A stretch of DNA of 49,798 bases from Methylophilaceae bacterium (GCA_011391175.1 JAABQZ010000007.1:1-49798); one strand, 5' to 3'. Counted from the stretch's first letter, positions 1 to 44,602 are shown. A program made the numbers and translations. Notes: generated by a model from the letters alone, not told the origin.

Positions 1-1892
1 GTGCGTGCGTCTTCGTAACCGTTTTCAATCATATTTTGCATCAGCACAATATTGGATTTTAGAAACTCAATCACGGGTGCTTTATCTAATAAAACCGTAC
101 AGCCATTAGCTGAACGCTCTGCAGAAGCATCGGCAAACTCAAAAGCTTGCTCGACTTTTAGGTCTGGCAAACCTTCAATCTCTAAAATGCGGCCGTTAAA
201 TACATTCTTTTTGTTGGTTTTTCCAACCGTTAATGTGCCCTCTTGTATTGCTGCGTATGGAATCGCATTCACCAAATCGCGCAAGGTAATACCTGGTTGC
301 ATTTCACCCTTAAAGCGCACCAGCACTGACTCTGGCATATCTAATGGCATCGCGCCTGTGGCGGCTGCAAAGGCTACCAAGCCAGAACCCGCAGGAAATG
401 AAATGCCAATCGGGAAACGCGTATGTGAGTCGCCGCCTGTACCAACCGTATCAGGCAAAATTAAACGATTTAACCATGAGTGAATCACGCCATCGCCTGG
501 ACGTAAGGAAACACCCCCACGACTGCTCATAAATTCTGGCAAGCTGTGCTGCAGCTTAATATCGACTGGTTTTGGATAAGCTGCAGTATGACAAAAACTT
601 TGCATCACCAAATCACTACTAAAGCCTAAACAAGCTAACTCTTTTAGCTCGTCACGCGTCATGCCGCCAGTGGTGTCTTGTGAACCCACAGTAGTCGCTT
701 TTGGCTCACAATAGGTATTTGGGCGTACGCCAACGCCTTCAGGCAAACCACATGCACGACCCACCATTTTTTGCGCCAGTGTGTAGCCTTTGGTTGAAAC
801 AACAGCTGGCGTTGCTTTAATGAAAATGTCCGTCTCTGGCAAATTTAAAGCCTTGCGCGCATTGGCAGTTAAGCCGCGACCAATAATCAAAGGAATACGC
901 CCGCCAGCGCGCACTTCGTCTGGAATCGTGACAGGATTCAGCTCGAAGCTAGAAATAACCTCGCCAGTTTCATTTACCACTTTGCCCTCATACGGAAAGA
1001 TGGTGATTTCATCACCAGTTTGCATTTTTGATACATCACACTGAATCGGCAACGCCCCAGAATCTTCCGCAGTGTTAAAGAAAATAGGGGCGATTTTTGC
1101 GCCTAAAATCACGCCGCCTGTGCGTTTATTGGGAATATTAGGAATATCGTTGCCCATGAACCACTGCACTGAGTTAATGGCTGATTTGCGTGAAGAACCC
1201 GTACCAACCACATCGCCCACGTACACGAGCGGCAAGCCTGTTTGTTTTAGGCTTTCAATTTTGTTTAAGCCATCTGGCATTTTGTTAATCAGCATCGCTT
1301 TGGCGTGTAATGGAATATCAGGGCGACTCCAAGCATCTTGCGCAGGGCTTAAGTCGTCCGTATTGGTTTCGCCATCGACTTTAAACACCACCATTTTTAG
1401 CTGATTTGCCAACACTGGTTTGCTGGTAAACCATTCCGCATTTGCCCAACTCTCCATGAGTTTTTTGGCGTGGGTATTGCCAGACTTCATTAACACATCA
1501 ACATCGTGAAACGCATCAAACATTAAAATGGTATTGCTTAAAGCATTAACCGCATTTGCTGCCATAGGCGTACTTAGTAGTTCCACCAAAGCCTGAACGT
1601 TGTAACCCCCTAGCATGGTGCCTAGCAATTGCACGGCTTTCTCAGGTGAAATGAGGGGTGAAGTTGCTGTGCCTTTGGCAATATCAGCCAAAAATGCTGC
1701 TTTGACATAAGCCGCTTGGTCTACACCTGCTGGCGTTTGATTCTCGAGCAAATCGAGTAATAAAGTCTCGTCAGATTTGGCAGGACTTTTCAGCAACTCA
1801 ACTAACGAGGCTACTTGTTCAGGACTCAAAGGTAAAGGGGGTAATTGTTGTGCAGCACGCTCTTGGACGTGTAATTGGTAAGCTTTTAACAT
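1..1892 (-). CDS. acnB: Aconitate hydratase B / 2-methylisocitrate dehydratase, C-terminus beyond window edge
   Basis: Reverse-strand reading from ATG at 1892 gives [34 protein letters not shown]..., with [36 protein letters not shown] and [21 protein letters not shown], typical of AcnB. Open to the window edge, so absent from the ORF track. Confidence 0.95.
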
Positions 1893-2006: not shown

Positions 2007-2339
2007 CTAATTAACACTCTCTGATACAAACTCTTTAGCGAATGGGATTGGGCAACCACCGCCCATCGCACGCACTTCCCACCGATCTAACAGCGCTTTT
2101 TGGTAATCTTTCCCATGTTTAAGCACTAAAAATGCGCGAACTTCCAGCACATCAGCAAAGCCATTTTTATCGGTATCCATCGCCGCTACATTTTGCTCTA
2201 CCGTAGGGCCAGTGTACTTGCCATCTTTGTCGGTCAGATAGTCTAATATATCTTCAGCAATAGAAGCGTTAGCGCAGAAAAGCAAGCATGCAGTTATTAT
2301 CAGTTTCGTCATTTTATGGTCAATCCCAAAAACATTCAT
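2007..2339 (-). CDS. Small exported protein with one EF-hand-like motif (start probably at the internal Met before KLIITACLLFCANASIA)
   Basis: Signal-peptide-like N-terminus and DTDKNGFADVLE calcium-binding-loop-like segment. Confidence 0.6.
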   Translation of the reverse strand: MNVFGIDHKMTKLIITACLLFCANASIAEDILDYLTDKDGKYTGPTVEQNVAAMDTDKNGFADVLEVRAFLVLKHGKDYQKALLDRWEVRAMGGGCPIPFAKEFVSESVN

Positions 2340-2411: not shown

Positions 2412-3977
2412 CTACGAAACACTTTGTATATCGATTATCTTATGTTGCGCAATTTTTTCCTTCCATAGCGCTGGACCTGTCTGGTGTACAGATTCACCCG
2501 TCGCACTGACTGCCACTGTCACGGGCATGTCCACCACATCAAACTCATAAATGGCTTCCATACCCAAATCAGCAAAGGCAACCACACGTGATTTTTTAAT
2601 CGCCTTGCTCACTAAAAAAGCCGCACCACCAACCGCTATTAAATACACGGATTTATGCTTCTTAATCACCGCCAGCGCTTCATCTCCGCGCTCTGCCTTG
2701 CCAATACTGCCAAGCAAGTTGAGTTGCCCCAACATTAATTCAGTGTAATCATCCATACGTGTCGCCGTGGTTGGGCCAGCTGGGCCAACTGCTTCATCAC
2801 CTACCGCATCCACTGGACCAACGTAATAAATAAAACGGTTTGTTAAATCAACTGGCAATGTTTCACCTTTAGCCAACATGTTGGCAATACGTTTATGCGC
2901 CGCATCACGTCCTGTCAAAATTTTTCCAGTCAACAACAGCGTCTCGCCCGCTTGCCAATTTGCAACATCCGCTTTGGTTAATGTATCTACATTCACCCTT
3001 TTAGCTTGTGCGCTCGGCGCCCAATGTACATCTGGATAACTGGATAAATCTGGCGGCGTCAGTTCCGCCACACCTGAGCCATCCAGCTCAAAATGTATAT
3101 GTCGAGTCGCTGCACAATTTGGAATAATTGCCACTGGCAAGCTAGCTGCGTGTGTTGGATAATCTAAAATCTTCACATCCAGTACGGTCGCCAAACCGCC
3201 TAACCCTTGCGCGCCAATGCCCAAATTATTCACTTTTTCAAAAATCTCTAAGCGTAATTCTTCTATTCGATTAAGACTTTGCTTATCTTTTAAATTTAAT
3301 GCACGCAATTTCAATTCATGCATATTAATTGGGGCCATCAGTGACTCTTTGGCTAGTAGTACCGCTTTTTCTGCACTGCCGCCTATACCAATACCCAACA
3401 TGCCCGGAGGACACCAACCCGCACCCATTTGGGGCACAACTTCCAATATCCAATCCACAATGCTGTCGTTCGGGTTTAACATCGCAAGCTTGGCCTTGTT
3501 CTCCGAACCGCCGCCTTTTGCCGCGATACTTATCTCAACTTTATCACCCACCACCAACGAGACATGTACTACAGCTGGCGTATTATCTTTAGTATTGGCG
3601 CGCTTTCCAGCTGGGTCAGTTACTATCGAAGCGCGCAATTTATTCTCTGGTAATAAGTAAGCGCGCCGCACACCTTCGTTGACCATTTGTTCAACATCCA
3701 TTTGTACTACATCAAGGCCTGCATCCCATCTAACATTCATGCCTACTCTAACAAAAGCAACAACAATGCCAGTATCCTGACAAATAGGCCGCTTACCTTC
3801 GGCACACATTCTGGAATTAGTGAGAATCTGCGCAATCGCATCTTTAGCAGCGGGTGACTCTTCTAATTTATAAGCCTCTCCCAACGCCTGAATATAATCA
3901 GTCGGATGGTAATACGAGATATATTGCAAAGCATCTGCAATACTTTGAATAAAATCGGCTTGTTTAATAGTGGCCAT
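2412..3977 (-). CDS. fumA: Class I [4Fe-4S] fumarate hydratase (possible mesaconase side activity)
   Basis: 521 aa; CQDTG, GGGSENKAKLAMLNP, GAGWCPPGMLGIGIGGSAEKA, GAQGLGGLATVLDVKI and PNCAATRHIHFELDG motifs of single-chain class I fumarases. Confidence 0.93.
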   Translation of the reverse strand: MATIKQADFIQSIADALQYISYYHPTDYIQALGEAYKLEESPAAKDAIAQILTNSRMCAEGKRPICQDTGIVVAFVRVGMNVRWDAGLDVVQMDVEQMVNEGVRRAYLLPENKLRASIVTDPAGKRANTKDNTPAVVHVSLVVGDKVEISIAAKGGGSENKAKLAMLNPNDSIVDWILEVVPQMGAGWCPPGMLGIGIGGSAEKAVLLAKESLMAPINMHELKLRALNLKDKQSLNRIEELRLEIFEKVNNLGIGAQGLGGLATVLDVKILDYPTHAASLPVAIIPNCAATRHIHFELDGSGVAELTPPDLSSYPDVHWAPSAQAKRVNVDTLTKADVANWQAGETLLLTGKILTGRDAAHKRIANMLAKGETLPVDLTNRFIYYVGPVDAVGDEAVGPAGPTTATRMDDYTELMLGQLNLLGSIGKAERGDEALAVIKKHKSVYLIAVGGAAFLVSKAIKKSRVVAFADLGMEAIYEFDVVDMPVTVAVSATGESVHQTGPALWKEKIAQHKIIDIQSVS

Positions 3978-3982
3978 GTTGA

Positions 3983-5620
3983 TTAACGCGAAGATTTTGC
4001 AATTGCAATATTGGGGCTAATGTCTTTACGCAAAATTTTACCATTTTTGGTGCGCGGAAAGTCATGTGCCAAGTACACGGTTTTAGGTGCTTTGTAGGCG
4101 GCTAAATGTTGTTTACCGTAGGCGGCCAAATCATCGGCTGTCGTTTTTGCCTCTGGTTTCAAAATCGCATAAAGCGCAACCAATACTTTATCTTTTTCAA
4201 GCTCTTCGCCAATGGCGGCACAATCAGCAACATCGGGATGTCCTTTATAGACACGCTCAATCTCATAAGGTGAAACACGATAACCAAAACTTTTGATAAT
4301 GTCATCTTTACGGCCTAAAAACCAGATGTAGCCATTTTCATCGTATTTTGCGTAATCTCCGGTGAAAAAGTAGCCATTATGCTTATATTTTGCAGTTTCT
4401 TCCGGCAGGTTCCAGTAATTTAAAAATATACCAGGGTCATTCAGGGGCACGCTAATCATACCCTCTTCACCTGTTGGCACTTCTTCTAAAGTTTCAGGAT
4501 TAAGTAATTTGATATTATGCCCAGGCTGCGGAAAGCCTGCAGAACCTGGCCGGATAGGACGTAGTTTGTTTTGGCTTAAATAATAAGAAAACTCACTCAT
4601 ACCGACCGCTTCATAAATATCTAAGTGAAAACGCTCACGCCACTGATTTAACACCTCATCTGACAAATGCTCGCCAGCACTCATAAAATGGCGCAAGCTG
4701 GAGATATCTTGATAAGTAGCTGTCGTTTTTTGCAAAATTTGGCGATAAATGGTGGGTACGCCAATAAAAATGGTGGCTTGATGTTTTTGAATCAGGCTTA
4801 ACCACACCTGCGCGTCATTTTTGCCTTCATGCACGATGACCGTTTTGCCTAAGTACAAGGGATCCATCAAACCAGTGCCTAACACGTAAGTCCAATTAAA
4901 CTTACCTGAATGCATGATGCGGTCATTTGTCGTGTCTGAATAATTAAACCAGTATTGCGCAGCAGGTTGGCGGCCAAGCAAGGCGCGGTGCGCATGCAAT
5001 ACGCCTTTGGGGTAGCCGGTCGTGCCTGATGTATACACAAGGTAAGCGGGCTCATCCGATTTGCTTTTGTATGCGGCTTGGCACTGCTGTATAGTGCTTA
5101 GTGCATTTTCCAAACTCAACACATTTAACTGGCTGTGCGGCTCGACATCCGTCGTTTGTGACAACAGAATGTGCTTCAAATTTGGCATCCCTGCCAAACC
5201 TTCTGCCAATTGCTGTTCCATTCCCTCCCAAGCTTTTGCGTCAGTTACCAATACAGTTGCACCTGAATCTTTAGCTAAATAAGCAACTTCTTCTGCGGTC
5301 AGCAATGTCGACGTTGGTACCGAAATCGCACCCATTTTCATCGCACCCAAAAATGCAATCGGGTAATCCAAACTATTAGGCAGGCGAATCAGTACGCGGT
5401 CCCCCACCTTAACTTTTAAATTTCGCAATAATTGTGCAAATTGATCCGTTTTGCGTGCCAATTCCGCAAACGTGATTTGCGATGTGCCAAGCACATCATC
5501 TTCCACAATCATGGCGATGTTATCAACTTGTGATGTGCCTAAATGCTTGTCGCTACAGGCTACGCCAATATTGAAGTGGGTGGGAATATTCCATTCCCAT
5601 GTTGGAAAGTTAGTAAACAT
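3983..5620 (-). CDS. AMP-dependent acyl-CoA synthetase (acid:CoA ligase), substrate unknown
   Basis: YLVYTSGTTGYPKGVLHAHRA P-loop, YEAVGMSEFSYY, FFTGDYAKYDENGYIWFLGRKDDIIKSFGYRVSPYEIE, FPRTKNGKILRK. The track extends to 5644 but ATG at 5620 overlaps the upstream stop (TAATG) and starts MFTNFPTWEWNIPTHFNIG. Confidence 0.85.
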   Translation of the reverse strand: MFTNFPTWEWNIPTHFNIGVACSDKHLGTSQVDNIAMIVEDDVLGTSQITFAELARKTDQFAQLLRNLKVKVGDRVLIRLPNSLDYPIAFLGAMKMGAISVPTSTLLTAEEVAYLAKDSGATVLVTDAKAWEGMEQQLAEGLAGMPNLKHILLSQTTDVEPHSQLNVLSLENALSTIQQCQAAYKSKSDEPAYLVYTSGTTGYPKGVLHAHRALLGRQPAAQYWFNYSDTTNDRIMHSGKFNWTYVLGTGLMDPLYLGKTVIVHEGKNDAQVWLSLIQKHQATIFIGVPTIYRQILQKTTATYQDISSLRHFMSAGEHLSDEVLNQWRERFHLDIYEAVGMSEFSYYLSQNKLRPIRPGSAGFPQPGHNIKLLNPETLEEVPTGEEGMISVPLNDPGIFLNYWNLPEETAKYKHNGYFFTGDYAKYDENGYIWFLGRKDDIIKSFGYRVSPYEIERVYKGHPDVADCAAIGEELEKDKVLVALYAILKPEAKTTADDLAAYGKQHLAAYKAPKTVYLAHDFPRTKNGKILRKDISPNIAIAKSSR

Positions 5621-6735
5621 TACAGCAATACTCCATATGGCCAATTTTGACGCACCACTTGTTCTGGCAATTGTTCTAATACATGCACCGCAAATTCCAT
5701 GTCCGATGTCTTGAGCGCTCGTAATGCATGCGCACGCAACAAGGTTTGTAGCGCCTTGCCGAACATCGGTGGATCTAACATCTCACCTTCAAATTTAATC
5801 GCGCCGCCATGCAAAGCATCTGCCTCTATCGCCGCTTTTAAAATAGCTACTTTTTGCGCTACATCGGTTGGCGATGGCGTGTAAGCAGTTTTACACAAAT
5901 GAATATGCCCTGGGTGAATCACCTGCTTGCCTGTCAGGCCCATGGCTGCTTCTTGGCAAGCGTGTTTGTACACAATGCGCGATTCATTATCGCCATGTAA
6001 ATCCAGCCAACGGCGTACATCATGCGGTTCTAAATATTTCTCTGGCATGATATTTTGGCCAATCAGCGTTTCAACACCACCAATTACACCCTTACCCGCA
6101 ATACGTGCCTCAAACATCAAATGATTCATATAAAACTGCAGCTCTTCTATCCAGCCTTCAGCCGTAATATGAATACCCATGGCTTTTGAAAAGTCGTGTA
6201 TACCAAACACCACATGTTTTACCGTGTTGTATTGCATCAGCTCGGGCGCAATTTTGAGTGATTTCGGGTGCTCGATAATGGGTTGAATCGTGATATGTGG
6301 ATTCACACTCAGTAGCAAACTCGATAAGTCACGCACCTCTGGCGCCCCATAAACTTCACCCGCTTTGGCCAACATCACCACATCGATGTATTCACCCATA
6401 TCGCGTACCAACTGCATATCTAGCTCGTACTCATCGGTACGGAAAGAGTTACAACGAATAGCAATCGTCACGCGCTGATTGACTTTGCGTAGCTCAGGTA
6501 GCTCTTGTCGTAGCAAATCGCGACTCATTGCTTTTTGACGACAGCCATCTTCCAAGTCAAAAATCAGCGTATGCGCAATGGTATGATGCGCATGCTTTTT
6601 CATGCGCGCACTGGCTTGCGCCATGTCTTCGTAAATAGCTAAACTGGGCGCATATTTTACTGGCGGGTAATACAGCTGTATGCCTGGCCAATAATCACCC
6701 AAGCTGGTTTTATTTAATGTTGTTTGTTCACTCAT
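5620..6735 (-). CDS. HpcH/HpaI aldolase / CitE-like CoA-ester lyase
   Basis: HTLIFDLEDGCRQKA, IQPIIEHPKSLKIAPEL and HVVFGIHDFSKAMG motifs (putative metal-binding E and D retained). Confidence 0.85.
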   Translation of the reverse strand: MSEQTTLNKTSLGDYWPGIQLYYPPVKYAPSLAIYEDMAQASARMKKHAHHTIAHTLIFDLEDGCRQKAMSRDLLRQELPELRKVNQRVTIAIRCNSFRTDEYELDMQLVRDMGEYIDVVMLAKAGEVYGAPEVRDLSSLLLSVNPHITIQPIIEHPKSLKIAPELMQYNTVKHVVFGIHDFSKAMGIHITAEGWIEELQFYMNHLMFEARIAGKGVIGGVETLIGQNIMPEKYLEPHDVRRWLDLHGDNESRIVYKHACQEAAMGLTGKQVIHPGHIHLCKTAYTPSPTDVAQKVAILKAAIEADALHGGAIKFEGEMLDPPMFGKALQTLLRAHALRALKTSDMEFAVHVLEQLPEQVVRQNWPYGVLL

Positions 6736-6752
6736 TCCTCACCCCTAAACAT

Positions 6753-6791
6753 ATGCTCTGGAAGCCAATATCTATGCGGCTTGCAGGCTAT
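6753..6791. repeat. 39-bp palindromic intergenic repeat, copy 1
   Basis: atgctctggaagccaatatctatgcggcttgcaggctat; overlaps the sdhE stop codon end. Confidence 0.85.
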
Positions 6792-7041
6792 GTATTTTAT
6801 CTACGATGGATTGCTGTGCCTTACTTTTTAAATGTAAGTTTTTCATTTGCAACACATCCCAAAATTCGTTATCTGGTAGTGCTAACATCACATCAAATGC
6901 GCTCAATTCATCTAGCGTTAAATCGTTAAAATGCTGCGCCATAAAACGTTGTAGCACGATATCCAGCTCTAACATGCCACGCCTGCAACGCCAAGCTAGG
7001 CGGCGCTGTTCTGCATCTCTCAAATTTTCAGCATTCATCAT
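6772..7041 (-). CDS. sdhE: Succinate dehydrogenase flavinylation factor SdhE (YgfY/DUF339)
   Basis: 89 aa with RRLAWRCRRGMLELDIVLQRFM (the SdhE RGxxE region) directly downstream of sdhB. Confidence 0.93.
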   Translation of the reverse strand: MMNAENLRDAEQRRLAWRCRRGMLELDIVLQRFMAQHFNDLTLDELSAFDVMLALPDNEFWDVLQMKNLHLKSKAQQSIVDKIHSLQAA

Positions 7042-7045
7042 TTAT

Positions 7046-7810
7046 TTAGATGGCCTTTATAGAAATTTCTTTTTTAACAGTTTTGGTTTCACGCGCACGC
7101 TCAATTTTTAAATCTTTAATATTGGCAATCGCCGCATTTGGATTGAGCTTTTTGGGGCACACTTCTACGCAATTCATAATATTGTGGCAACGATACAAAC
7201 GATATGGGTCTTCTAGATTTTCCAATCTTTCCTCGGTTGCTTGGTCGCGGCTATCCATGATGAAACGATTGGCCTGCAATAAGCCCGCAGGGCCTACGAA
7301 TTTATCCGGGTTCCACCAAAAGCTGGGGCAGGATGTGGTACAGGCACCGCACAAAATACACTCATACAAACCATCTAATTTGGCACGATCTTCTGGGCTT
7401 TGTAATCGCTCGGTTTCTGGCAACGGGTCGTTGTTCACCAAGTAAGGTTTAACCGAGTTATAGTGCTCAAAAAACTGCGTCATATCGACGACCAAATCGC
7501 GAATCACTGGCAAACCGGGCATCGGGCGCAGCACAATGGGCTGCTCTAAGTCACTCAGTTTCGTAATGCAGGCCAAGCCATTTTTACCATTAATATTCAT
7601 CGCATCACTGCCACACACGCCTTCACGACAGGATTTACGCATGCTCAAGGTTTCATCATGTTCTTTAATGCGAATCAGCGCATCCAATAGCATGTGGTCT
7701 TCATCACGCAAGGCGATATCGTAATCTTGCATGTACGGTTTTTTATCGGTATCAGGGTTATAACGATAAATAGAAAACTTCACTTGATTTGCCATGCTTG
7801 ATTTTTCCAT
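7046..7810 (-). CDS. sdhB: Succinate dehydrogenase iron-sulfur subunit
   Basis: SCREGVCGSDAMNINGKNGLACIT, CILCGACTTSCPSFWWN and CHNIMNCVEVCPKKLNPNAAI; start at internal Met (7810 or 7795) more likely than 7837. Confidence 0.96.
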   Translation of the reverse strand: MEKSSMANQVKFSIYRYNPDTDKKPYMQDYDIALRDEDHMLLDALIRIKEHDETLSMRKSCREGVCGSDAMNINGKNGLACITKLSDLEQPIVLRPMPGLPVIRDLVVDMTQFFEHYNSVKPYLVNNDPLPETERLQSPEDRAKLDGLYECILCGACTTSCPSFWWNPDKFVGPAGLLQANRFIMDSRDQATEERLENLEDPYRLYRCHNIMNCVEVCPKKLNPNAAIANIKDLKIERARETKTVKKEISIKAI

Positions 7811-7811
7811 A

Positions 7812-9560
7812 TTAGTACACCCGTTTTTTCGGTTCAAACGATTCCACTGTAAGCGGTTTTAAGCGCACCGGTTTATAAGCTAAGCGATTGTTTTGTTTGT
7901 AAAAAAGTGAATGTGTCAGCCAGTTTTCGTCATCCCGCTCACTGTAATCCTCACGCGCGTGTGCGCCACGGCTTTCGGTTCGGTTATTGGCTGCATGCAT
8001 CGTAGCAACTGCCACTTCTATCAAGTTATCCAGCTCAAGCGCTTCTACTCTTGCTGTGTTAAATACTTGGCTTTTATCCCTAATCACAATGTACTTCGCG
8101 CGCTCAGCCACCGCATCAATCTCGTCAACACCTGCACTTAATAAATCTGGGAAGCGGAATACGCCGCAATGTGTTTGCATGGTCTTGCGCATGGCATCGC
8201 CCACTTCAACTACGCTTTCTCCTTGTGCGTTTTCTAAGCGACTCACACGTGCCAGCGTCGCCTCTGCGGCATTGGTCGGTAATGGTTTATGCACTTTGTT
8301 TTGTGCGATTTCTGCTACCATTTTATCGCCCGCAGCTTTACCAAATACCACCAAATCCAACAATGAGTTCGAGCCTAAACGATTGGCACCATGCACTGAA
8401 ACACAAGCACATTCACCTACTGCATATAAACCACTCACAGGTTTCTCACCTTCAAGCACGACTTGTCCATCTAAATTGGTGGGGATTCCACCCATCATAT
8501 AGTGGCAAGTTGGCACCACTGGAATCGGGTCATAAATCGGGTCGACATTGGCAAAAGTTTTGGCAATCTCGCGTATGCCTGGTAAGCGCTTATTAATCAG
8601 GTCTTCGCCCAGATGATCTAGTTTTAAATACACCGCGTCTTTATTCTTGCCAACGCCGCGCCCCTCTTTTATTTCTGTGGCCGATGCGCGTGCAATCACA
8701 TCGCGACTAGCTAAATCTTTAGCATGCGGCGCGTAACGCTCCATAAAACGCTCACCTTCGCTATTCACCAAATAGCCGCCTTCGCCACGCACGCCTTCAG
8801 TAATCAACACCCCTGCATTCAACACACCAGTGGGATGAAACTGCCAAAACTCCATATCTTGCAGTGGCAGACCAGCTCGCATGGCCATGCCTAAGCCATC
8901 ACCCGTGTTAATAAAGGCATTGGTACTGGCTTGGAATATCCTGCCAGCGCCGCCTGTGGCGATTAAAGTAGTTTTAGCTTGAAAAATATGAACCTCACCT
9001 GATTCAATCTCTAATGCAATCACCCCCAGCACATCGCCATCGGTATCGCGAATCAAATCGAGTGCAAACCACTCCACAAAAAATTGTGTATTGGCTTGGA
9101 TGTTTCGTTGATACAAGGTATGTAGCATGGCATGGCCAGTTCTGTCAGCCACCGCGCAGGTACGAGAAATAGGCGTTTCACCAAAATTTTGCGTCATGCC
9201 TCCAAACGGGCGTTGGAATATCTTGCCATTGTCTAAGCGGTCAAACGGCATGCCAAAATGCTCTAGCTCAATAATGGCTTTTGCGGCGTTCTTACACATA
9301 AACTCAATCGCATCTTGGTCGCCTAAAAAATCAGAGCCTTTGATGGTATCGTACATATGCCAAAGCCACTTATCTTCTGCTACATTGCCAAGCGCGGCCG
9401 CAATGCCGCCCTGCGCCGCCACGGTGTGCGAACGTGTAGGAAACACTTTGGATAACACCGCTACCTTAACGCCGGCTTCCGCCAGTTGCAGCGAGGCGCG
9501 CAAACCCGCACCTCCACCACCAATAATCACTGCATCAAATTGATGTGTCTCTAAACTCAT
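7812..9560 (-). CDS. sdhA: Succinate dehydrogenase flavoprotein subunit
   Basis: [61 protein letters not shown]; likely start MSLETHQF at 9560 rather than 9587. Confidence 0.97.
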
Positions 9561-9904
9561 ATATTCCACAAAATAAAACTTGCCCAAATTAAATAAGTAA
9601 CTAGCAAAATATCAACGATAGCCTGCAAATAAGCTCTTAGTTTTAAATTAAAAATGTAGTCTTTAAATACGTCGCTTACGCCTAACCAAGCATGCATAAA
9701 AAGACTGATAAAAAAAACAAAAGTCACCAACCTAAACCATATTGGCGCAACGAATTTATGCCAATCGCTGTAACTGGCTGGCTGATAAATCGCCAGCAAC
9801 AGCACCAGCAATAAAATATACGCAGCCATCATGAGGGCACTCAGGCGTTGTGACAGCCATAAGCGCATGCCAGGATATTTATTGGTGAGTAGTTGAATTA
9901 ACAC
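9557..9904 (-). CDS. sdhD: Succinate dehydrogenase membrane anchor subunit
   Basis: 115 aa, hydrophobic segments, position between sdhC and sdh[18 protein letters not shown] and [14 protein letters not shown]. Confidence 0.88.
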
Positions 9905-9920
9905 GTAAATTACCCAGCAA

Positions 9921-10313
9921 CTACCAAATCACAACGGCAAAAATCGCTACTGAAATCCCCACTAACCACAGCACGACACGACCAGAAAATCGTGCTTTTT
10001 GCAGACTGGTCATCCAATGGATGTCTTGCAATAAATGCCGCAAGCCTGCAAAAAAGTGATGGAAAAAAGCCCATGCCAACCCAATAAGCACAAGCTTTAT
10101 AAACCATGTATCAAATAACGCTTCCAGCTGTGTGTAGCTTTGTTGTGACTTTAACGAATATTGAAGCGCCAACAATAGCAATGGCAACATGGCAAATAGC
10201 GCCATGCCAGAGGCACGATGCAAAATGGACACCACTGCATTAATCGGCAGCCTGATTGTGAACAAATTCAGGTTTTTAGGCCTATTTTTATTTTTAGTGC
10301 TAATTTTTTGCAT
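9921..10313 (-). CDS. sdhC: Succinate dehydrogenase cytochrome b556 subunit
   Basis: RPKNLNLFTIRLPINAVVSILHRASGMALF and AFFHHFFAGLRHLLQDIHW, typical SdhC. Confidence 0.92.
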   Translation of the reverse strand: MQKISTKNKNRPKNLNLFTIRLPINAVVSILHRASGMALFAMLPLLLLALQYSLKSQQSYTQLEALFDTWFIKLVLIGLAWAFFHHFFAGLRHLLQDIHWMTSLQKARFSGRVVLWLVGISVAIFAVVIW

Positions 10314-10334
10314 GATATTTAATTATTTATTCTT

Positions 10335-11534
10335 TTAGTTTTCTTTAGCCGCTTTTGCAACCGCACCCGAAACCCTTGCTAGCAAACGTCTATCGAATGG
10401 TTTTGGAATAATATAGTCACGTCCAAATTCAAGCGACTTTAAGTTATAAGCTTGCAGCACGTCTGCAGGTACTGGCTCTCTCGCAAGCTCACTTAAGGCA
10501 TGCGCGGCCGCAATTTTCATTTTTTCGGTAATTTTGGTGGCTTTTGCATCCAGCGCGCCACGGAACAAATACGGAAAACACAAGGCATTGTTCACTTGGT
10601 TCGGGAAGTCACTGCGGCCAGTCGCCATCAAAATATCATCTCGAATCGCATGCGCTACACTTGGCAACACCTCTGGATCTGGGTTTGCCAATGCAAAAAT
10701 GATGGGATTTTTCGCCATGCCTTTGATTAGGGAAGCATCCAACGCATTTTTAGCTGAAACACCAATAAACACATCCGCTTGCGGCATCACATCTGTGAGC
10801 GTTTTATTGCTGCTTGGCTTAACTGCTAACTCTCGGTTATTGTCGTGTAAATCAGCACGCGAAGTGTCTAATACGCCTGTTCTATCTACCATGGTGATAT
10901 TGGTTGCACCCATGAGTTTGAGCAATTTTGCACATGAGCAGCCCGCCGCACCCGCGCCTAAAAACACAATTTTTGCAGTCGCTAACGTTTTACCTTGCAG
11001 TTCAATTGCGTTTAATAAGGCGGCCGCCACAATCACTGCTGTACCGTGCTGGTCGTCATGAAACACGGGAATATCTAGACGTTTTTTAAGCTCGTTTTCT
11101 ATATAAAAACAATGTGGCGCAGCAATGTCTTCTAAGTTAATGCCGCCAAAAGTTGGCGCGATATTCACCACGGTTTGAATAAACTCGTCTGGGGTTGCTG
11201 CATTCACTTCAATATCAAACACGTCAATGCCTGCAAAGCGTTTAAACAACACAGCCTTGCCCTCCATCACTGGCTTGCTTGCAAGCGCACCCATATTGCC
11301 CAAGCCCAATACCGCTGTGCCATCGGTAATAACCGCAACCAAATTACCTTTATTGGTATATTTATAAGCATTGGCAGGGTCTGCATTAATTTCACGCACG
11401 GGCTCAGCCACACCTGGCGTATAGGCCAAGGACAAATCATCTTGCGTTGCGCAGGGCTTGGAAGACTCAACGCTCAGTTTTCCCGGAATCGGAAATTGGT
11501 GATAATCCAGCGCGCGTTTTTTTAGGTCGTCCAT
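10335..11534 (-). CDS. Malic enzyme, short form without phosphotransacetylase domain
   Basis: 399 aa; [74 protein letters not shown]. Confidence 0.93.
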
Positions 11535-11547
11535 TTTTGGCCTTAAT

Positions 11548-12288
11548 TTATTCTAGCTCGCTCATATAATGGTGATCATCAGTTAAGCATAACCCCAATC
11601 GCCACTCCATCGGCTTATCGCCATAGGTGTATGAAACACGCTCAATACTTAGCAAAGGCGCGCCAAGCTTCAAATTGAGCGCCTCTGCTACCTCTCCGCT
11701 AGCGGCTACAGCAGTCAATCGCTCTTCTGCACGTATCATGCGAATGCCATATTCAGTCTCGTACATGCTATACAATGAGCCTTTATTTTCCTCTATACGC
11801 GTGCCATTTAGACCTTTAAATGGGGCACCGGGAATGATGATATGGTCATATATAAGTGGCCTGCCAGAGAATGTTAACAAGCGCTTTACTTCAATTGTGG
11901 CAGCACTTGCTTTTAGCTCCAATATTTTTGCTATATGATTATCGGCTTTAGATTTAATACAGCTAATCAGCTCATTATTTAACGCTTCTTTGTGACCATT
12001 TACTGCTGTCAGGCGCAAAAATCGCAACTTAATACCTTCTTCGTTGTGCGTAGCAACAAACGTGCCTTTACCTTGACGGCGAATTAAAATATTTTCGCTT
12101 GCCAAGCTATCAATAGCTTTACGAACCGTGCCTTGGCTAACTTTATAACGTCCAGCCAAGTCAATTTCACTGGGAATCATCTCACCAGGGCGCCATTCAC
12201 CACCGATTAAGCTCTGTGTGAGCAATACTTTAATTTGGTCATAAAGTGGCCTATAGTTTGGGGCGTTGTGTGTTTTATCTATCATCAT
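11548..12288 (-). CDS. GntR-family transcriptional regulator with UTRA effector domain (HutC type)
   Basis: LIGGEWRPGEMIPSEIDLAGRYKVSQGTVRKAIDSLASENILIRRQGKGTFVA wHTH; C-terminal UTRA-like region. Confidence 0.92.
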   Translation of the reverse strand: MMIDKTHNAPNYRPLYDQIKVLLTQSLIGGEWRPGEMIPSEIDLAGRYKVSQGTVRKAIDSLASENILIRRQGKGTFVATHNEEGIKLRFLRLTAVNGHKEALNNELISCIKSKADNHIAKILELKASAATIEVKRLLTFSGRPLIYDHIIIPGAPFKGLNGTRIEENKGSLYSMYETEYGIRMIRAEERLTAVAASGEVAEALNLKLGAPLLSIERVSYTYGDKPMEWRLGLCLTDDHHYMSELE

Positions 12289-12366
12289 TATTTTGCATCG
12301 CTACAGTTACAAAAATATATGAATCAAATTAAAACACATCGAATTAAATTAGTCTAGTAATTTATA

Positions 12367-12394
12367 TCTTATACAAGACTTATCTTATATAAGA
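12367..12394. promoter_or_regulatory. Putative tandem operator for the adjacent GntR regulator
   Basis: TCTTATACAAGA (12367-12378, near-palindrome) and TCTTATATAAGA (12383-12394, perfect palindrome), 16 bp centre to centre, in the divergent intergenic region. Confidence 0.6.
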
Positions 12395-12407
12395 CATAAG
12401 ATATTTG

Positions 12408-12437
12408 TTGACAGCGTCCAAAAACCGTCTATATAAT
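12408..12437 (+). promoter_or_regulatory. Sigma70-type promoter for the citE-mch-mcl-prpBC(D) operon
   Basis: TTGACA (12408-12413), 18-bp spacer, TATAAT (12432-12437), 33 bp before the ATG at 12471. Confidence 0.75.
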
Positions 12438-12470
12438 CACTGCAACTAAATAAAATTCAAGACCCCACTT

Positions 12471-13352
12471 ATGGAACATTGCTTTCGCCCACGCCGCTCT
12501 GCGCTATATGTGCCAGGCTGTAACCAGCACTATTTAGACCGCGCGCGCACCTTGCCCGCAGACGCCGTTATACTGGACCTTGGTGACCCTATCTTAATTG
12601 ATGCCAAAATTGAATCGCGTCATAACATCGTAGCGGCCGTCAAACAAGGTGGCTATGGCGCACGCGAGGTGATTGTGCGTGTGAATAATCTTGATTCGAT
12701 TTGGGGTCGCGATGACATTAAAGCAGTGGCCAATATCGGTGCTGATGCGATACTTTTTCCAAATATTGAGTCTGCTGAGCACGTGCACACAGCGCTAAAG
12801 CTATTAGATGCGGCTGGTGGCAGCCATATGCCAATTATGGTGATGATAGAGAGTCCACTTGCGGTGCTGAATGTTAAAGAAATTGCTTCTGCATCAGATA
12901 GAATTGTTTGTATGATGATGGCAACATCAGATTTAACCTCACAGCTACACGCTCGCGTCACGCATGAGCAAAGCGCAATTTTAACGGCACTATCCATGGT
13001 AATACTGGCAGCACGCGCCTATGGCCGATGCGTAGTGGATGGCATTACCAGCGATTTTAAAAATATGCATTCATTTGAATACGCCTGCCGTTTAGGTCGA
13101 GACTTAGGGTTTGATGGAAAAACGCTGGTTTCGCCATCACAAATCGCCTACAGCAACGATGCCTATACTCCAAAAAACAGCGAGGTAAATGATGCGCGGG
13201 CGATTATTCAGGCACTTAAAAATGCCAACGAGAAAGGCTTGGGTACGGTTGTCGTTAATGACCGGTTAGTTGAGCACCATCATATTAAAGCCGCTGAACG
13301 CTTGCTAAAACTGCACAACATGATTGCCGAATTAGAAGAAGAATATATATGA
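12471..13352 (+). CDS. CitE-like HpcH/HpaI lyase paralogue (divergent DLGDP motif)
   Basis: FRPRRSALYVPGCNQHYLDRARTLPADAVILDLGDP, GYGAREVIVRVNNLDSIWG, MVMIESPLAVLN, LGFDGKTLVSPSQI. Confidence 0.85.
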   Translation: MEHCFRPRRSALYVPGCNQHYLDRARTLPADAVILDLGDPILIDAKIESRHNIVAAVKQGGYGAREVIVRVNNLDSIWGRDDIKAVANIGADAILFPNIESAEHVHTALKLLDAAGGSHMPIMVMIESPLAVLNVKEIASASDRIVCMMMATSDLTSQLHARVTHEQSAILTALSMVILAARAYGRCVVDGITSDFKNMHSFEYACRLGRDLGFDGKTLVSPSQIAYSNDAYTPKNSEVNDARAIIQALKNANEKGLGTVVVNDRLVEHHHIKAAERLLKLHNMIAELEEEYI

Positions 13353-14413
13353 CCAATAAAGTAAGTACTGGCCGCTTCTTTGAAGACTTCACCTTAAATG
13401 AAGCCATTCAACATGCTACGCCACGCACCATTACGGCTGGTGATTGTGCGATTTATATTGCACTGTATGGCGCGCGCCAACCCTTGTTTTGCAGCGCGCA
13501 ATTTGCACAAAGCTTAGGCCATAAAGCCACCCCTGTCGATGACTTACTGGCTTTTCATATTGCATTTGGCAAAACTGTGCCTGATATTTCGGTTAATGCG
13601 ATTGCCAATCTAGGTTATGCCGATGTGCGTTTTTTACAGGCTGTTTTTGTTGGGGACACGCTTTCCACTTCTAGCCAAGTCATTGGTTTAAAACAAAACT
13701 CAAACGGTAAAAGCGGTGTCGTTTGGGTACACTCGACGGCCACTAATCAGCGCGGCGAGCCCGTATTGAGCTGGGTACGTTGGGTGATGCTACATAAATC
13801 AAATCTAGATGCCCCGGCACCTATAACTGTTGTGCCAACGCTACCAAGCGTTGTTGCGCCGGAAAACTTGCAACTACCCAGTTATTTTTCGGCAGCAAAC
13901 TTTGATGCCAAAGCAACTGGTGGTCAGTATTATTGGGAAGACTATCAAGTTGGCGAATGCATCAGCCACGCCCCTGGCATGACCATTAATCCTGCAGAGC
14001 ATTCGATGGCCACGCGTCTATATCAAAACAATGCACGTTTGCATTTTGACGACCACATGATGAAAACATCAAGCTTTGGTCAGCGATTGGTATACGGCGG
14101 TGTAGTCATTTCCATATGCCGCGCACTGAGTTATGAAGGTCTAGAAAACGCAATTTCTATTCTAGCAATTAATGCTGGTACACATGCTAACCCCAGCTTT
14201 GCAGGCGATACGATATATACACGCACTGAGGTGTTAGACACTTGGGCGTTACCTGAGCGCACTGATGTTGCAGCTTTGCAGCTGCGCATGGTGGGCATAA
14301 AAAATATGCCAGCAAGTGATATTGATAATATCAAAACTGAAAGCGGTTACCACCCTAATGTGGTACTAGATTTAGATTACACCGTACTGATGCCAAGCAG
14401 AGGAAAACAATAA
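13349..14413 (+). CDS. mch: Double MaoC-like hydratase, probable mesaconyl-CoA hydratase (Mch-type)
   Basis: GRFFEDFTLNEAIQHATPRTITAGDCAIYIALYGARQPLF, PVDDLLAFHIAFGKTVPDISVNAIANLGYADVRFL, LSTSSQVIGLKQNSNGKSGVVWVHSTATNQRGEPVL; strong recalled similarity to Rhodobacter-type Mch. ATGA overlap with the upstream gene. Confidence 0.8.
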   Translation: MTNKVSTGRFFEDFTLNEAIQHATPRTITAGDCAIYIALYGARQPLFCSAQFAQSLGHKATPVDDLLAFHIAFGKTVPDISVNAIANLGYADVRFLQAVFVGDTLSTSSQVIGLKQNSNGKSGVVWVHSTATNQRGEPVLSWVRWVMLHKSNLDAPAPITVVPTLPSVVAPENLQLPSYFSAANFDAKATGGQYYWEDYQVGECISHAPGMTINPAEHSMATRLYQNNARLHFDDHMMKTSSFGQRLVYGGVVISICRALSYEGLENAISILAINAGTHANPSFAGDTIYTRTEVLDTWALPERTDVAALQLRMVGIKNMPASDIDNIKTESGYHPNVVLDLDYTVLMPSRGKQ

Positions 14414-14414
14414 T

Positions 14415-15413
14415 ATGGTACATCCAAATGACGCTTTATTCGGCGGTGAAAAACCGTTTCCACTCATCCCTGCCTGCGAACATTTTGCTGGTAGCGAAAA
14501 ACTTATTTTAAAAGCATTAAGTCTGCAAGACGCAAATAACCCGAATGCGCCTGGTGCGGTATTTGATATTACCTGCGATTGCGAAGATGGTGCCTCCAGT
14601 GGCCAAGAAGTTGAGCATGCAGAGATGATTGTGCGGGTGCTCAACAGTGAAGCTAACGTGCACAAAATGGCAGGAGCGCGCATTCACGATTACACGCACC
14701 CTGCCTGGAAGCAAGATATTGATATTTTGGTCAGCGGTGCAGGTAAATTGCTGAGTTATATCACCATTCCTAAATGTACTAGCTTGGCACAAGCCAGCGA
14801 GATGATTGCCTACCTTCAAAAAATTGCCACGTTTAATGGCATTGAGCGCATCATCCCTGTCCACATTCTAATTGAAACACATGGCGCGTTGAACCAAGTA
14901 CATGAAATCGCCAAATTGCCTTGGGTGCAAGTGCTGGACTTTGGCTTAATGGATTTTGTCAGTGCGCATCACGGCGCCATTCCAGCTAGTGCCATGCGTA
15001 GCCCAGGCCAATTTGAACACAAATTGTTAGCACGCGCCAAAACTGAAGTGGTTGCCGCTGCACTAGCAAACGGCGTTGTGCCCGCACACAACGTGACTCT
15101 GGATCTTAAAAATGTAGAAACGACGCAAAGTGATGCAGGCCGCGCCCGCAAAGAGTTTGGCTTTATGCGCATGTGGAGCATTTATCCCTCGCAAATCCAG
15201 GCGATTGTCGATGCCATGAAACCCAATTACGACGAGGTAGCAGATGCAGCTAATATTCTGATTGCCGCGCAGGATGTGGCTTGGGGGCCGATTCAATACG
15301 ATGGTGAACTGCACGATAGAGCAACGTATCGCTATTTTTGGGAAATTTTACAAAAAGCCAAATTGACAGGCGTTGCCATATCTGACGAAGCACAAAAAAG
15401 GTTTTTCTCATGA
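14415..15413 (+). CDS. HpcH/HpaI aldolase, malyl-/methylmalyl-/citramalyl-CoA lyase-like
   Basis: [57 protein letters not shown]. Confidence 0.83.
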
Positions 15414-16309
15414 GTATATTAAGCTCTACTGAATTAAACTCAGCTGGCGCACGTTTCCGCGCAGCTATCGCCACTGAAAAACCACTGCAAATTATCGGCG
15501 CTATTAACGCCTACCATGCCATGCTGGCCACGCAAACTGGCTATAAAGCCTTGTATTTATCAGGTGGCGGTGTGGCTGCTGGCTCACTCGGTTTGCCAGA
15601 TTTAGGCATCTCAACACTTGAAGATGTGTTAATTGATGTGCGACGCATTACCGATGTAGTAGAGACGCCTTTACTAGTGGATATTGATACAGGGTTTGGT
15701 GGTGCCTTCAACATTGCCCGCACTGTGAAATCAGTGATTAAAGCAGGCGCAGCAGCAGTGCATATTGAAGACCAAGTGAGCGCCAAGCGCTGCGGTCATC
15801 GTCCAAACAAAGCAGTCGTTTCTCAAGCTGAAATGGTAGACCGGGTAAAAGCTGCGGCAGATGCGAAGACTGACGCGAACTTTGTCATCATGGCGCGTAC
15901 TGATGCGCTGGCAGTAGAAGGTTTGCAATCGGCGATTGACCGTGCCTGTGCTTGTGTTGAAGCAGGTGCAGATATGATATTTCCTGAAGCAATGACCGAA
16001 CTCAGTATGTACAAACAATTTGTAGATGCGGTCAAAGTACCCGTTCTAGCAAACATTACCGAGTTTGGCAGCACCCCTTTATTTACCGTGGATGAGCTAG
16101 CAAGCGCCGATGTGAGCATGGTGTTATACCCACTTTCGGCATTCCGTGCCATGAATCAGGCCGCGCTTAAAGTCTATCAAACTGTGCGTAAAGAAGGCAC
16201 ACAAAAGAATGTTGTAGATTTAATGCAAAGCCGCGCAGAGCTTTACGAGTACTTGGGCTATCACGCGTTTGAGCAAAAACTTGACAGCCTGTTTAGCGAG
16301 AACAAATAG
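15410..16309 (+). CDS. prpB: 2-Methylisocitrate lyase
   Basis: [67 protein letters not shown] overlap with the upstream lyase. Confidence 0.96.
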
Positions 16310-16337
16310 TAAAGAAGCAATTAAGGGGAAAGTAGCA

Positions 16338-17492
16338 ATGGAAACAACTACAACTTCACACGAACCCAAAAAGAAAAAGGGTGTAGCACTTGCTGGCGTC
16401 AACGCTGGCTCTACCGCCGTTTGCACGGTTGGTCACACTGGCAACGATTTGCATTATCGTGGTTACGATATTATAGAACTGGCAAAATATGCTACGTTTG
16501 AAGAGGTGGCTTATTTGCTGATTCATGGTGAGCTGCCAAGCAAAGCGCAACTGACCTCTTACCATCAAAAACTCAAAACATTACGTGGCTTGCCAACTGC
16601 GCTTAAAGCAGTGTTGGAGCAAATCCCAAAAAATGCTCATCCAATGGACGTCATGCGTACAGGTTGCGCCATGCTAGGTACCTTAGAGCCTGAAGATTCG
16701 AGCAGAAATATTGAAGCCGCCAAAAATTTAGGCGACCGTTTAATTGCGTGTTTCGGCTCAATTTTATTGTATTGGTACCACTTTAGCCATCATGGTAAAC
16801 GTGTTGAAGTTGAGACCAATGATGACTCAATCGCTGCCCACTTTTTGCATGTGTTACACGGAAAAGCGCCGAGTCAACTACACATTGATGCCATGAACAC
16901 CTCACTGGTGCTATACGCAGAACATGAGTTTAACGCCAGCACGTTTACAGCCAGAGTAATTGCAGGCACTTTATCTGACATGTATAGCAGTGTTACCGGT
17001 GCGATTGGCGCGCTACGTGGGGCGAAACACGGTGGCGCCAATGAGGCCGCGATGGAAATTATCGAGCGCTATAAAAATGCTGATGAAGCCGAAGCGGATA
17101 TTTTGGCGCGTATCACCAAAAAAGAAATCATCATTGGTTTTGGGCATCCTGTGTATACAATCGCTGACCCACGCAATGAATCAATAAAAGCAGTTTCACG
17201 CAAATTAAGCGAAGATAACGGCAATATGACGCTATTTAACGTTTCTTCACGCATTGAAGAAGTGATGTGGCGTGAGAAAAAAATGTTCCCGAATTTAGAT
17301 TGGTACAGCGCATCCAGTTACCACATGATGGGCATCCCTACTGGCATGTTCACGCCAATATTCGTCATTTCACGCACCTCCGGCTGGGTTGCGCACATTA
17401 TCGAGCAGCGCATCGATAACAAAATCATTCGTCCGAATGCAGAGTACACAGGTCCAGATAATCGAGCATTTGTACCATTAAATAAGAGATAA
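16338..17492 (+). CDS. prpC: 2-Methylcitrate synthase
   Basis: Citrate synthase fold motifs with PrpC-like [34 protein letters not shown] and [18 protein letters not shown]; start with AAGGGGAA RBS at 16338 preferred over 16269. Confidence 0.94.
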
Positions 17493-17515
17493 ACAAAAAA
17501 ACTTACTTTGTTGCG

Positions 17516-17660
17516 TTAGTTGCCTTTAGCTATTCTATTTTTAAGATGAAGCACAAGGCGCACGGAGCGCAAAAACCAGAATGTACACCTAGTACATGAG
17601 GATTTTGAGCACCGCGCAACGCAGTGATTCGCTTAAAAATCAATAGATAAAGGTAACTAA
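17516..17660. repeat. ~145-bp long imperfect inverted repeat between prpC and prpD
   Basis: Left arm ttagttgcctttagctattctatttttaag pairs with right arm cttaaaaatcaatagataaaggtaactaa; pairing continues inward to a gtac...gtac core. Confidence 0.85.
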
Positions 17661-17662
17661 AC

Positions 17663-19123
17663 ATGTCAGCCCACATTTCAAACGTACGCCCTGCCCCAGA
17701 CCAAGTGATTGTCGATATTGCCAATTATGTTGCAGATTTTACCATTCAATCTGACGAGGCATTTGATACTGCACGCAATTGCTTAATGGACACACTCGGT
17801 TGTGGATTTGAGGCACTTGATTACCCTGCCTGCACCAAAGTACTTGGCCCAGTCATTCCAGGCACAATCGTGCCAAATGGTGCAAAAGTGCCAGGCACCA
17901 GCTATCAGTTAGACCCTGTTCTAGCTGCATTTAATATAGGCGCGATGATTCGTTGGCTAGATTTTAACGACACTTGGCTGGCTGCAGAGTGGGGTCATCC
18001 TTCCGATAATTTAGGTGGCATTTTGGCTTGTGCTGATTATATTTCGCGCAAAAACGTAGCAGAAGGAAAAGCACCACTCACCATTAAAGACGTACTCACT
18101 GCCATGATTAAGGCGCATGAGATTCAAGGCGTATTTGCTTTGGAAAACAGCTTTAACCGGGTTGGCTTGGATCATGTGATTTTAGTGAAAATCGCTTCAA
18201 CAGCGGTAGTAACAAAATTACTAGGCGGCAATAAAGAAGATATCATCAATGCGGTTTCTAACGCATTTGTGGATGGACAAAGTTTGCGCACGTATCGTCA
18301 TAGCCCAAATACTGGCTCGCGCAAATCGTGGGCAGCAGGCGATGCAACCTCTAGAGCAGTTAGATTGGCATGGCTAACTTTGCAGGGTGAAATGGGTTAT
18401 CCAAGCGCACTGACTGCAAAAACTTGGGGCTTTTATGATGTGCTATTCAAAGGTAATGCCTTTAAATTTCAGCGTGATTACGGCAGCTACGTCATGGAGC
18501 AAGTGTTATTTAAAATCAGCTTTCCTGCAGAGTTTCATGCGCAAACTGCGGTGGAATGTGCCATTCAACTCAATGCGCAAGTGGGCAGTGAATTACAAAC
18601 TTTAGAGCAAATCGCGCAGATTGATAAAATCATCATTACCACGCACGAATCCGCAATCCGTATTATCGACAAAACTGGACCACTTGATAACCCAGCTGAT
18701 CGCGACCATTGTATTCAATATATGGCAGCAGTTGGCTTACTCAAAGGTAATTTAACGGCATTGGATTATGAAGATGCGGCAGCCGCTGACCCACGCATTG
18801 ACGCGATTCGCAGCAAAATGACTTGTGTAGAAAAAGCTGAATATACGACAGACTATCACGACCCAGAAAAACGCTCGATTGCCAATGCAATTCAAGTGTT
18901 TTTTAAAGATGGCTCAAGCTCAGACAAGATTGCGGTGGAATACCCAATTGGGCATCGCCGCCGCCGCGGTGAAGGCATTCCAGAGTTAGTGAAAAAATTC
19001 AAAGTCAACTTAGCGCGTAAGTTTGACACAAAAAAACAAGCGGATATTTTAGCTTTGTGTCTAGACCAAGCTAAGCTAGAAGCTACGCCAGTCAACGTGT
19101 TTGTGGATATGCTGGTGGTTTAA
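17663..19123 (+). CDS. prpD: 2-Methylcitrate dehydratase
   Basis: [81 protein letters not shown]. Confidence 0.96.
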
Positions 19124-20704: not shown

Positions 20705-22044
<1,340 letters not shown>

Positions 22045-44311: not shown

Positions 44312-44602
44312 TTATTAACCTTTAACTCTTATATAAAATCTAAGACAACATTAGCAAATCTATAGTTTTTTGTGTTTAAGCACCCTATTTTAACTTGACC
44401 AAAATGCCTAAAAAAGCCACACTACTACCTTTAATAGCGGCACCAAGTAATAGCAATACTTTATAGAACATTCATTTTCACGTTTAGTTGCAGCACCTAA
44501 AAACCGGCGCCTAAAAACCAAAGTATAACTATTCGAATTATACGCGCAGCAAACGAACTGTTGTTAGAACGCGCAATTGCGCGCAACGGAGAAATCTCAC
44601 GC

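Follow-up and report, generated by a model that had tools for sequence, protein, structure and literature searches.

The citramalate cycle of Rhodospirillum rubrum (Ivanovsky 1997), which is disputed and has been reviewed with doubts (PMC8307300), takes acetyl-coenzyme A (acetyl-CoA) and pyruvate through citramalate, mesaconate, mesaconyl-CoA and methylmalyl-CoA to glyoxylate and propionyl-CoA. In the genome paper of Arcobacter butzleri (2007), the same reaction scheme as that considered below was proposed (PMC2147049); its genes ab1917-ab1921 encode a CitE protein, a ligase-CitE fusion, a MaoC protein, another CitE protein and a class I fumarase, and an interconversion of acetyl-CoA + pyruvate with glyoxylate + propionyl-CoA was put forward alongside the methylcitrate cycle. 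Here we describe a divergent locus, carried on a 49,798-nucleotide contig of a Methylophilaceae bacterium, in which candidate genes for such a conversion adjoin those of the methylcitrate cycle; the locus is real, conserved and partly described already, and most likely encodes an acetyl-CoA bypass akin to the citramalate cycle, in a variant form.

The comparison with these and other known systems shows both likeness and difference. The R. rubrum cycle closes through succinyl-CoA, whereas the present cluster has methylcitrate cycle genes in the same operon. In A. butzleri, likened here by the description of its genes, the ligase is fused to CitE, the methylcitrate genes lie elsewhere and belong to the AcnD/PrpF variant, and the net flux was suggested to run in the opposite direction (PMC2147049). 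The lower part of the ethylmalonyl-CoA pathway (Mch, Mcl1, Mcl2) offers another parallel: in Rhodobacterales mch lies near sdh, and Ruegeria TM1040 clusters mch, a gene for a thioesterase-type CitE protein and sdh; however, the present cluster is without the crotonyl-CoA carboxylase branch and has a fumarase and a ligase instead, and crotonyl-CoA carboxylase/reductase and ethylmalonyl-CoA mutase are given as absent from Methylophilaceae in PMC6794327. Glyoxylate assimilation in the 3-hydroxypropionate bicycle of Chloroflexus proceeds through these C5 CoA esters as well and likewise uses a hydratase of the Mch type, but the cluster itself shows no mesaconyl-CoA transferase or C4 hydratase, and free acids would be handled via the fumarase and ligase.

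Within the family, the original prediction was right that a methylcitrate cycle had been reported for Methylotenera-type methylotrophs (PMC4109929, PMC3728764). The genes are listed as methylcitric acid cycle genes in Methylotenera and relatives (PMC4109929), are strongly expressed in situ in Methylotenera with metabolite and role unknown (PMC3728764), and are missing from some streamlined relatives (PMC6794327); for OM43, a rise in the methylcitrate genes along with dissolved organic matter is described (PMC5120137). The published Methylotenera/Methylophilus cluster (prpCBD, cyl1, maoC, cyl2, gntR, mdh, sdhABCD, cyl3, prpE, fum, can) is the same cluster as that described here; in the available text of PMC4109929 and PMC3728764, maoC is not identified as Mch and the thioesterase type of cyl1 is not noted. 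The coupling to a C5-CoA module had been supposed uncharacterised. In our literature search no publication came up that interprets the Methylophilaceae cluster as such a bypass or demonstrates the bypass by experiment; the idea itself is not new, having been proposed for A. butzleri and being, in its first half, identical with the citramalate cycle. Thus the cluster, the reaction scheme and the citramalate half-cycle are already published; added here are the association with acetyl-CoA synthetase (acs) and an operator, the thioesterase type of cyl1, and a near-exclusion with isocitrate lyase.

Organization of the locus

The window, by which we mean the entire 49,798-nucleotide contig, belongs to a genome of 1.76 Mb that is 84% complete; all coordinates refer to the window. 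The locus diverges around a GntR/UTRA regulator, with the left arm running from mae through SdhCDAB, SdhE, cyl3, ligase, fumarase and a small protein to AcnB, and the right arm carrying, from gntR onward, cyl1, Mch, cyl2, PrpB, PrpC and PrpD on the plus strand.

3-1892 (-): AcnB, first 630 residues, the rest beyond the contig end; NCBIfam NF006690, 1066 bits, cut-off 782
2007-2339 (-): small conserved protein, 110 aa, between fum and acnB; no family match
2412-3977 (-): class I fumarase, candidate mesaconase/fumarase; Pfam Fumerase 319 bits, Fumerase_C 265 bits
3983-5644 (-): acyl-CoA ligase forming adenosine monophosphate (AMP), candidate mesaconate-CoA (or citramalate-CoA) ligase; NCBIfam matches below cut-offs
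5620-6735 (-): cyl3, CitE superfamily, candidate citramalyl-CoA-forming enzyme; all lyase residues present
6772-7041 (-): SdhE flavinator; Pfam Sdh5 72.9 bits
7046-10313 (-): SdhB, SdhA, SdhD, SdhC (succinate dehydrogenase); TIGR00384, TIGR01816, TIGR02968, TIGR02970 above cut-offs
10335-11534 (-): malic enzyme, no phosphotransacetylase domain; NF009501 positions 7-403 of 764, 535 bits
11548-12288 (-): GntR/UTRA regulator (HutC subfamily), SdhR-type; Pfam GntR and UTRA, operator matching the SdhR motif
12367-12394 (no strand): two tandem candidate operators, TCTTATACAAGA at 12367 and TCTTATATAAGA at 12383; palindrome conservation
12471-13352 (+): cyl1, CitE superfamily, malyl-CoA-thioesterase (Mcl2) type; Glu at the catalytic Asp position
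13349-14413 (+): Mch (MaoC), mesaconyl-C1-CoA hydratase/beta-methylmalyl-CoA dehydratase by homology; 57% identity to 4e3e
14415-15413 (+): cyl2, CitE superfamily, candidate beta-methylmalyl-CoA/malyl-CoA lyase; closest solved relative 3qqw, 510 bits
15410-16309 (+): PrpB methylisocitrate lyase; TIGR02317 430 bits, cut-off 354
16269-17492 (+): PrpC 2-methylcitrate synthase; NF009006 676 bits, cut-off 550
17663-19123 (+): PrpD 2-methylcitrate dehydratase; TIGR02330 858 bits, cut-off 458

All genes that the original prediction had placed in 2412-19123 are present, with the correction that AcnB lies outside these limits and is cut by the contig end. All four proteins of the methylcitrate cycle are represented, PrpC, PrpD and PrpB scoring above their NCBIfam cut-offs and the partial AcnB above one.

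Predicted reaction sequence

We propose, with a probability of about 0.5, that the locus encodes an isocitrate-lyase-independent glyoxylate bypass, in which the methylcitrate cycle closes a citramalate-type route from acetyl-CoA. In the first part of the predicted sequence, acetyl-CoA and pyruvate would be joined by cyl3 to (S)-citramalyl-CoA, the thioester of which may be hydrolyzed by cyl1 or cyl3 to (S)-citramalate, and the class I fumarase would convert the latter to mesaconate; a thioesterase such as cyl1 could in this way pull citramalyl-CoA formation. Mesaconate would then be activated by the ligase to mesaconyl-C1-CoA, with cleavage of adenosine triphosphate (ATP) to AMP, hydrated by Mch to beta-methylmalyl-CoA, and cleaved by cyl2 to glyoxylate and propionyl-CoA. 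Finally, propionyl-CoA and oxaloacetate would pass through methylcitrate and methylisocitrate to pyruvate and succinate (PrpC, PrpD, AcnB, PrpB), so that the net reaction, acetyl-CoA + oxaloacetate to glyoxylate + succinate, would equal the net reaction achieved with isocitrate lyase at the price of one ATP converted to AMP. Succinate may return to oxaloacetate or pyruvate through succinate dehydrogenase, fumarase and malic enzyme, and in Methylophilaceae, being without malate synthase, glyoxylate and acetyl-CoA could be joined by a lyase plus a thioesterase.

The sequences themselves show which genes are present, the families of their products, the conservation of catalytic residues, the distribution among lineages and a shared operator sequence; from these we infer the substrates of the ligase and of the CitE-like proteins, the direction of flux and the physiological role.

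Predicted identities of the enzymes

The three CitE-like proteins, all taken for lyases in the original prediction, differ in the catalytic residues defined for the CitE/malyl-CoA lyase superfamily by Zarzycki and Kerfeld (PMC3832036). Wherever cyl2 and cyl3 could be aligned, the Arg, the catalytic Asp, the Mg-binding Glu/Asp and the Glu-Asp pair are invariant, bar one ambiguous letter at R76 of a cyl3 protein, the catalytic residues being intact in 46/46 cyl2 and 68/68 cyl3 proteins. In cyl1, Glu stands at the catalytic Asp position in 46/46 proteins, as it does in the Mcl2-like protein of Ruegeria, and the Glu of the pair holding the Mg-bound waters is gone in 41/47; such a replacement of the catalytic Asp by Glu occurs within the superfamily in the malyl-CoA thioesterase group only (PMC3832036). 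A further resemblance is the 38% identity of cyl1 to the Ruegeria CoA ester lyase adjoining mch and sdh. Judged by its residues, cyl1 is probably a thioesterase-type paralogue rather than a lyase, and the locus would hold two candidate lyases and one thioesterase-type protein. The solved structure nearest to cyl2, 3qqw, is that of an uncharacterised protein, and an AlphaFold2 model of cyl3, built with 22 aligned relatives, was not used (mean predicted local distance difference test score 63, below 50 for residues 182-287).

The assignment of an Mch-type hydratase stands: the MaoC protein is, by homology, Mch, being 57% identical to the solved protein 4e3e, which we take to be the Chloroflexus enzyme, 51% identical to 8hgn ('beta-methylmalyl-CoA dehydratase'), and 50% identical to the MaoC protein beside sdh in Ruegeria TM1040; it is thus closely related to the hydratase that serves the 3-hydroxypropionate and ethylmalonyl-CoA pathways. 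The best NCBIfam matches of the ligase fall under their cut-offs and none is PrpE; by this measure the ligase is not PrpE, and the label 'prpE' that it bears in the literature is unsupported. Hydration of mesaconate to (S)-citramalate is a known activity of class I fumarases, thought to be general for the class, and since mesaconase acts on (S)-citramalate, the stereochemistry of the proposed sequence would be compatible (PMC4682846). The class I fumarase is the sole fumarase candidate detected in the genome, class II FumC giving no match over the cut-off in this genome or in 36/37 Methylophilaceae, and it therefore probably doubles as the ordinary fumarase.

Distribution relative to isocitrate lyase

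At the genome level, searches of 37 Methylophilaceae genomes for isocitrate lyase, malate synthase and 2-oxoglutarate dehydrogenase E1 gave no match over the cut-off, while these were present in 16/24, 17/24 and 22/24 other families of the order, respectively. The complete classical glyoxylate shunt, which would have spoken against the bypass, was accordingly not found in the family, isocitrate lyase and malate synthase both being missing from these genomes. Among 43 genomes bearing the cyl3-ligase module, which were drawn from the 80 best cyl3 loci and do not form a random sample, isocitrate lyase occurs in 0, Mch in 42, PrpB in 41 and malate synthase in 15. Twelve of these 15 malate synthase carriers belong to the 13 genomes in which the module is linked to acs, so that malate synthase is present and isocitrate lyase absent in 12/13 of this group. 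The supposition that cyl1 substitutes for malate synthase, and is lost where malate synthase exists, failed, cyl1 being found in every acs-linked mch locus read.

A fairer sample is given by 300 genomes drawn evenly from the order, in which isocitrate lyase was detected in 2/17 cyl3-positive and 154/283 cyl3-negative genomes (Fisher p = 0.0007, uncorrected for phylogeny, all Methylophilaceae being without isocitrate lyase whether or not they have the module). Within the 20 Mch-positive genomes, isocitrate lyase is absent from 15/16 with cyl3 and from 1/4 without it. The pattern is strong, yet it has exceptions and in part reflects lifestyle.

Conservation and gene arrangements

A scan with cyl3, using one genome per species, gave 240 relatives, the best 80 loci of which were read. 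Methylophilaceae retain the full gene order, even in a genome of only 1.35 Mb, a recurrence that places the arrangement far beyond chance, and cyl3 adjoins the ligase in 80/80 loci. Five layouts were distinguished, the full cluster being that of Methylophilaceae. In Sulfuricella, Thiobacillus, Hydrogenophilus and Tepidiphilus the order is cyl3-lig-cyl1-mch-cyl2, often with a divergent fumarase; in Gallionella and Sideroxydans it is cyl2-mch-cyl1/gntR/cyl3-lig; and in Methylophaga prpDCB-cyl2-mch-cyl1/gntR-mae-cyl3-lig is followed by a phosphoenolpyruvate (PEP) synthase regulator and PEP synthase. The remaining layout, at 13 other betaproteobacterial loci, is split: cyl3-lig(-fum) is divergent from acetyl-CoA synthetase (13/13), with fumarase after cyl3-lig in all 11 loci whose sequence extends far enough, and a second locus holds cyl1-mch-cyl2 with gntR, next to prpB wherever the contig reaches and usually also accompanied by sdh and citrate synthase where it does. 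Two loci (L050 and L053), in genomes of other families of the order that possess isocitrate lyase and a normal glyoxylate shunt, show mch-cyl2-prpBCD-sdh-citrate synthase with no cyl3-ligase nearby.

Regulator, palindrome and acetyl-CoA synthetase

A 12-mer palindrome, TCTTATATAAGA, occurs in 64/71 gntR-cyl1 intergenic regions of beta- and gammaproteobacteria, against a background of 8 matches per 2.09 Mb of shuffled sequence. The window has the exact palindrome at 12383 and a one-mismatch copy, TCTTATACAAGA, at 12367. The SdhR motif TCTTATGTCTTATATAAGACATAAGA, quoted in PMC4494728 and traced there to work on malonate and propionate catabolism, has this palindrome at its core, and the symmetry of the flanks matches as well. 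Between acs and cyl3 the palindrome recurs in 13/13 acs-linked loci, exactly in 10 and with a single mismatch in 3, and in three Methylophilaceae loci (L043, L046 and L052) acetyl-CoA synthetase stands within or beside the cluster, either between cyl1 and gntR with a palindrome on each side, or beyond acnB at the end of the prp operon. The palindrome common to the gntR-cyl1 and acs-cyl3 regions, along with the acs genes in Methylophilaceae clusters, links both the C5-CoA module and the methylcitrate cycle with acetate activation in one candidate regulon.

Another one-mismatch palindrome, TCTTATATAAAA, lies at 44327-44338, upstream of aceE (pyruvate dehydrogenase E1, 44561-47272). It recurs only in the closest relative (G009, locus L174), the flanks of four further relatives having given no aceE hit, and was set aside as possibly due to chance.

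Weighing of the explanations

The bypass without isocitrate lyase put forward in the original prediction is partly supported by the genome-level tests, the near-exclusion, the co-occurrence with PrpB and the operator shared with acs, but not without exception, as two module-bearing genomes possess isocitrate lyase. Several further observations weigh against it. Most carriers are methylotrophs or autotrophs, and lifestyle might explain the missing isocitrate lyase; cyl1 is retained in genomes having malate synthase; and cyl1-mch-cyl2-prp is also found together with isocitrate lyase and with no cyl3 nearby. The Ala that accommodates propionyl-CoA beside the Mg-binding Asp in known lyases is replaced by Ser in cyl1, Met in cyl2 and His in cyl3, so that substrate specificity is unreadable from the sequence. 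The main weakness of the forward route is that the one known lyase concerned, the malyl-CoA lyase of C. aurantiacus, forms citramalyl-CoA only when pyruvate is present in high excess (PMC3832036).

The last point also favors a flux in reverse, resembling the latter part of the 3-hydroxypropionate bicycle, by which glyoxylate and propionyl-CoA would be salvaged: condensed by cyl2 to beta-methylmalyl-CoA, they would pass via Mch to mesaconyl-CoA, via the thioesterase cyl1 to mesaconate, via fumarase to citramalate, via the ligase to citramalyl-CoA, and by cyl3 to acetyl-CoA and pyruvate. Cleavage of citramalyl-CoA is favored by lyase chemistry (PMC3832036), and the separate cyl1-mch-cyl2 and cyl3-lig-fum loci of some lineages match the order of these steps. 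In such a scheme, methylcitrate cycle genes of the same operon would nevertheless compete for propionyl-CoA, for which no source is evident in obligate methylotrophs. Many module carriers are presumably Calvin-cycle autotrophs that make glyoxylate, which we count in favor of reverse flux; the regulator site common to acs, together with malate synthase in the absence of isocitrate lyase, suggests acetate use instead. The forward direction agrees better with the presence of the prp operon and the acs regulon, with malate synthase in genomes that lack isocitrate lyase and with PEP synthase as a neighbor; we regard the reverse direction as unlikely.

Rather improbable, too, is that the cluster serves an ordinary methylcitrate cycle for the oxidation of propionyl-CoA, with oxaloacetate regenerated by succinate dehydrogenase, fumarase and malic enzyme and the CitE-like and MaoC proteins in side roles. 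It equals the published annotation, read as propionate oxidation in PMC6794327, and agrees with Prp genes that exceed their cut-offs and with the tracing of the SdhR motif to a study of propionate catabolism; in Thiobacillus and one Gallionella, a propionate-CoA ligase gene is found close to the module or adjoining prpBCD, which fits propionate use and likewise tells against the bypass. Yet the ligase of the cluster is not PrpE, acetyl-CoA synthetase rather than PrpE joins the cluster in Methylophilaceae, and no job would be left for Mch and two residue-complete lyases that are kept even in the 1.35-Mb genome. More improbable still is that the cluster breaks down a C5-dicarboxylate from outside the cell, such as mesaconate, citramalate, 3-methylmalate or a similar acid, and supplies the methylcitrate cycle in this way, the products being either propionyl-CoA + glyoxylate or acetyl-CoA + pyruvate. 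The class I fumarase, the ligase, the hydratase and the lyases would suffice for it, Burkholderia xenovorans uses mesaconate with a promiscuous class I fumarase (PMC4682846), and the metabolite processed in Methylotenera is stated as unknown (PMC3728764); however, the recurrent neighbors examined included no dicarboxylate transporter, and the linkage to acs and the exclusion with isocitrate lyase would be left unexplained.

Taken with the preferred forward bypass, the evidence points to acetate use by the module carriers. A wider claim, which we hold more tentatively, is that a citramalate-methylcitrate cycle for acetyl-CoA operates across beta- and gammaproteobacteria lacking isocitrate lyase (obligate methylotrophs, sulfur and iron oxidisers and some heterotrophs), is switched by GntR together with acs, and permits acetyl-CoA oxidation in Methylophilaceae despite the missing 2-oxoglutarate dehydrogenase. 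What the methylcitrate cluster, highly expressed in Methylotenera, does there has been named as an open question (PMC3728764). Should the bypass be real, 'obligate' methylotrophs and many lithotrophs would have a functional pathway by which acetate yields C4 acids, organisms scored as glyoxylate-shunt-negative for want of isocitrate lyase would need rescoring, and the disputed citramalate cycle would be revived with a complete, testable gene set.

Other features of the window

The 110-aa protein at 2007-2339, which gave no match in Pfam and NCBIfam searches, has a signal-like start and an apparent EF-hand-like DTDKNG motif, and homologues occupy the same position in 12/80 loci. Outside the locus, 28256-30016 (+) encodes a divergent protein of 586 aa with a weak, partial match to aldehyde dehydrogenase (50 bits), and 20705-21454 (+), directly downstream of purB, encodes a protein combining an NYN nuclease domain with an OST-HTH/LOTUS domain.

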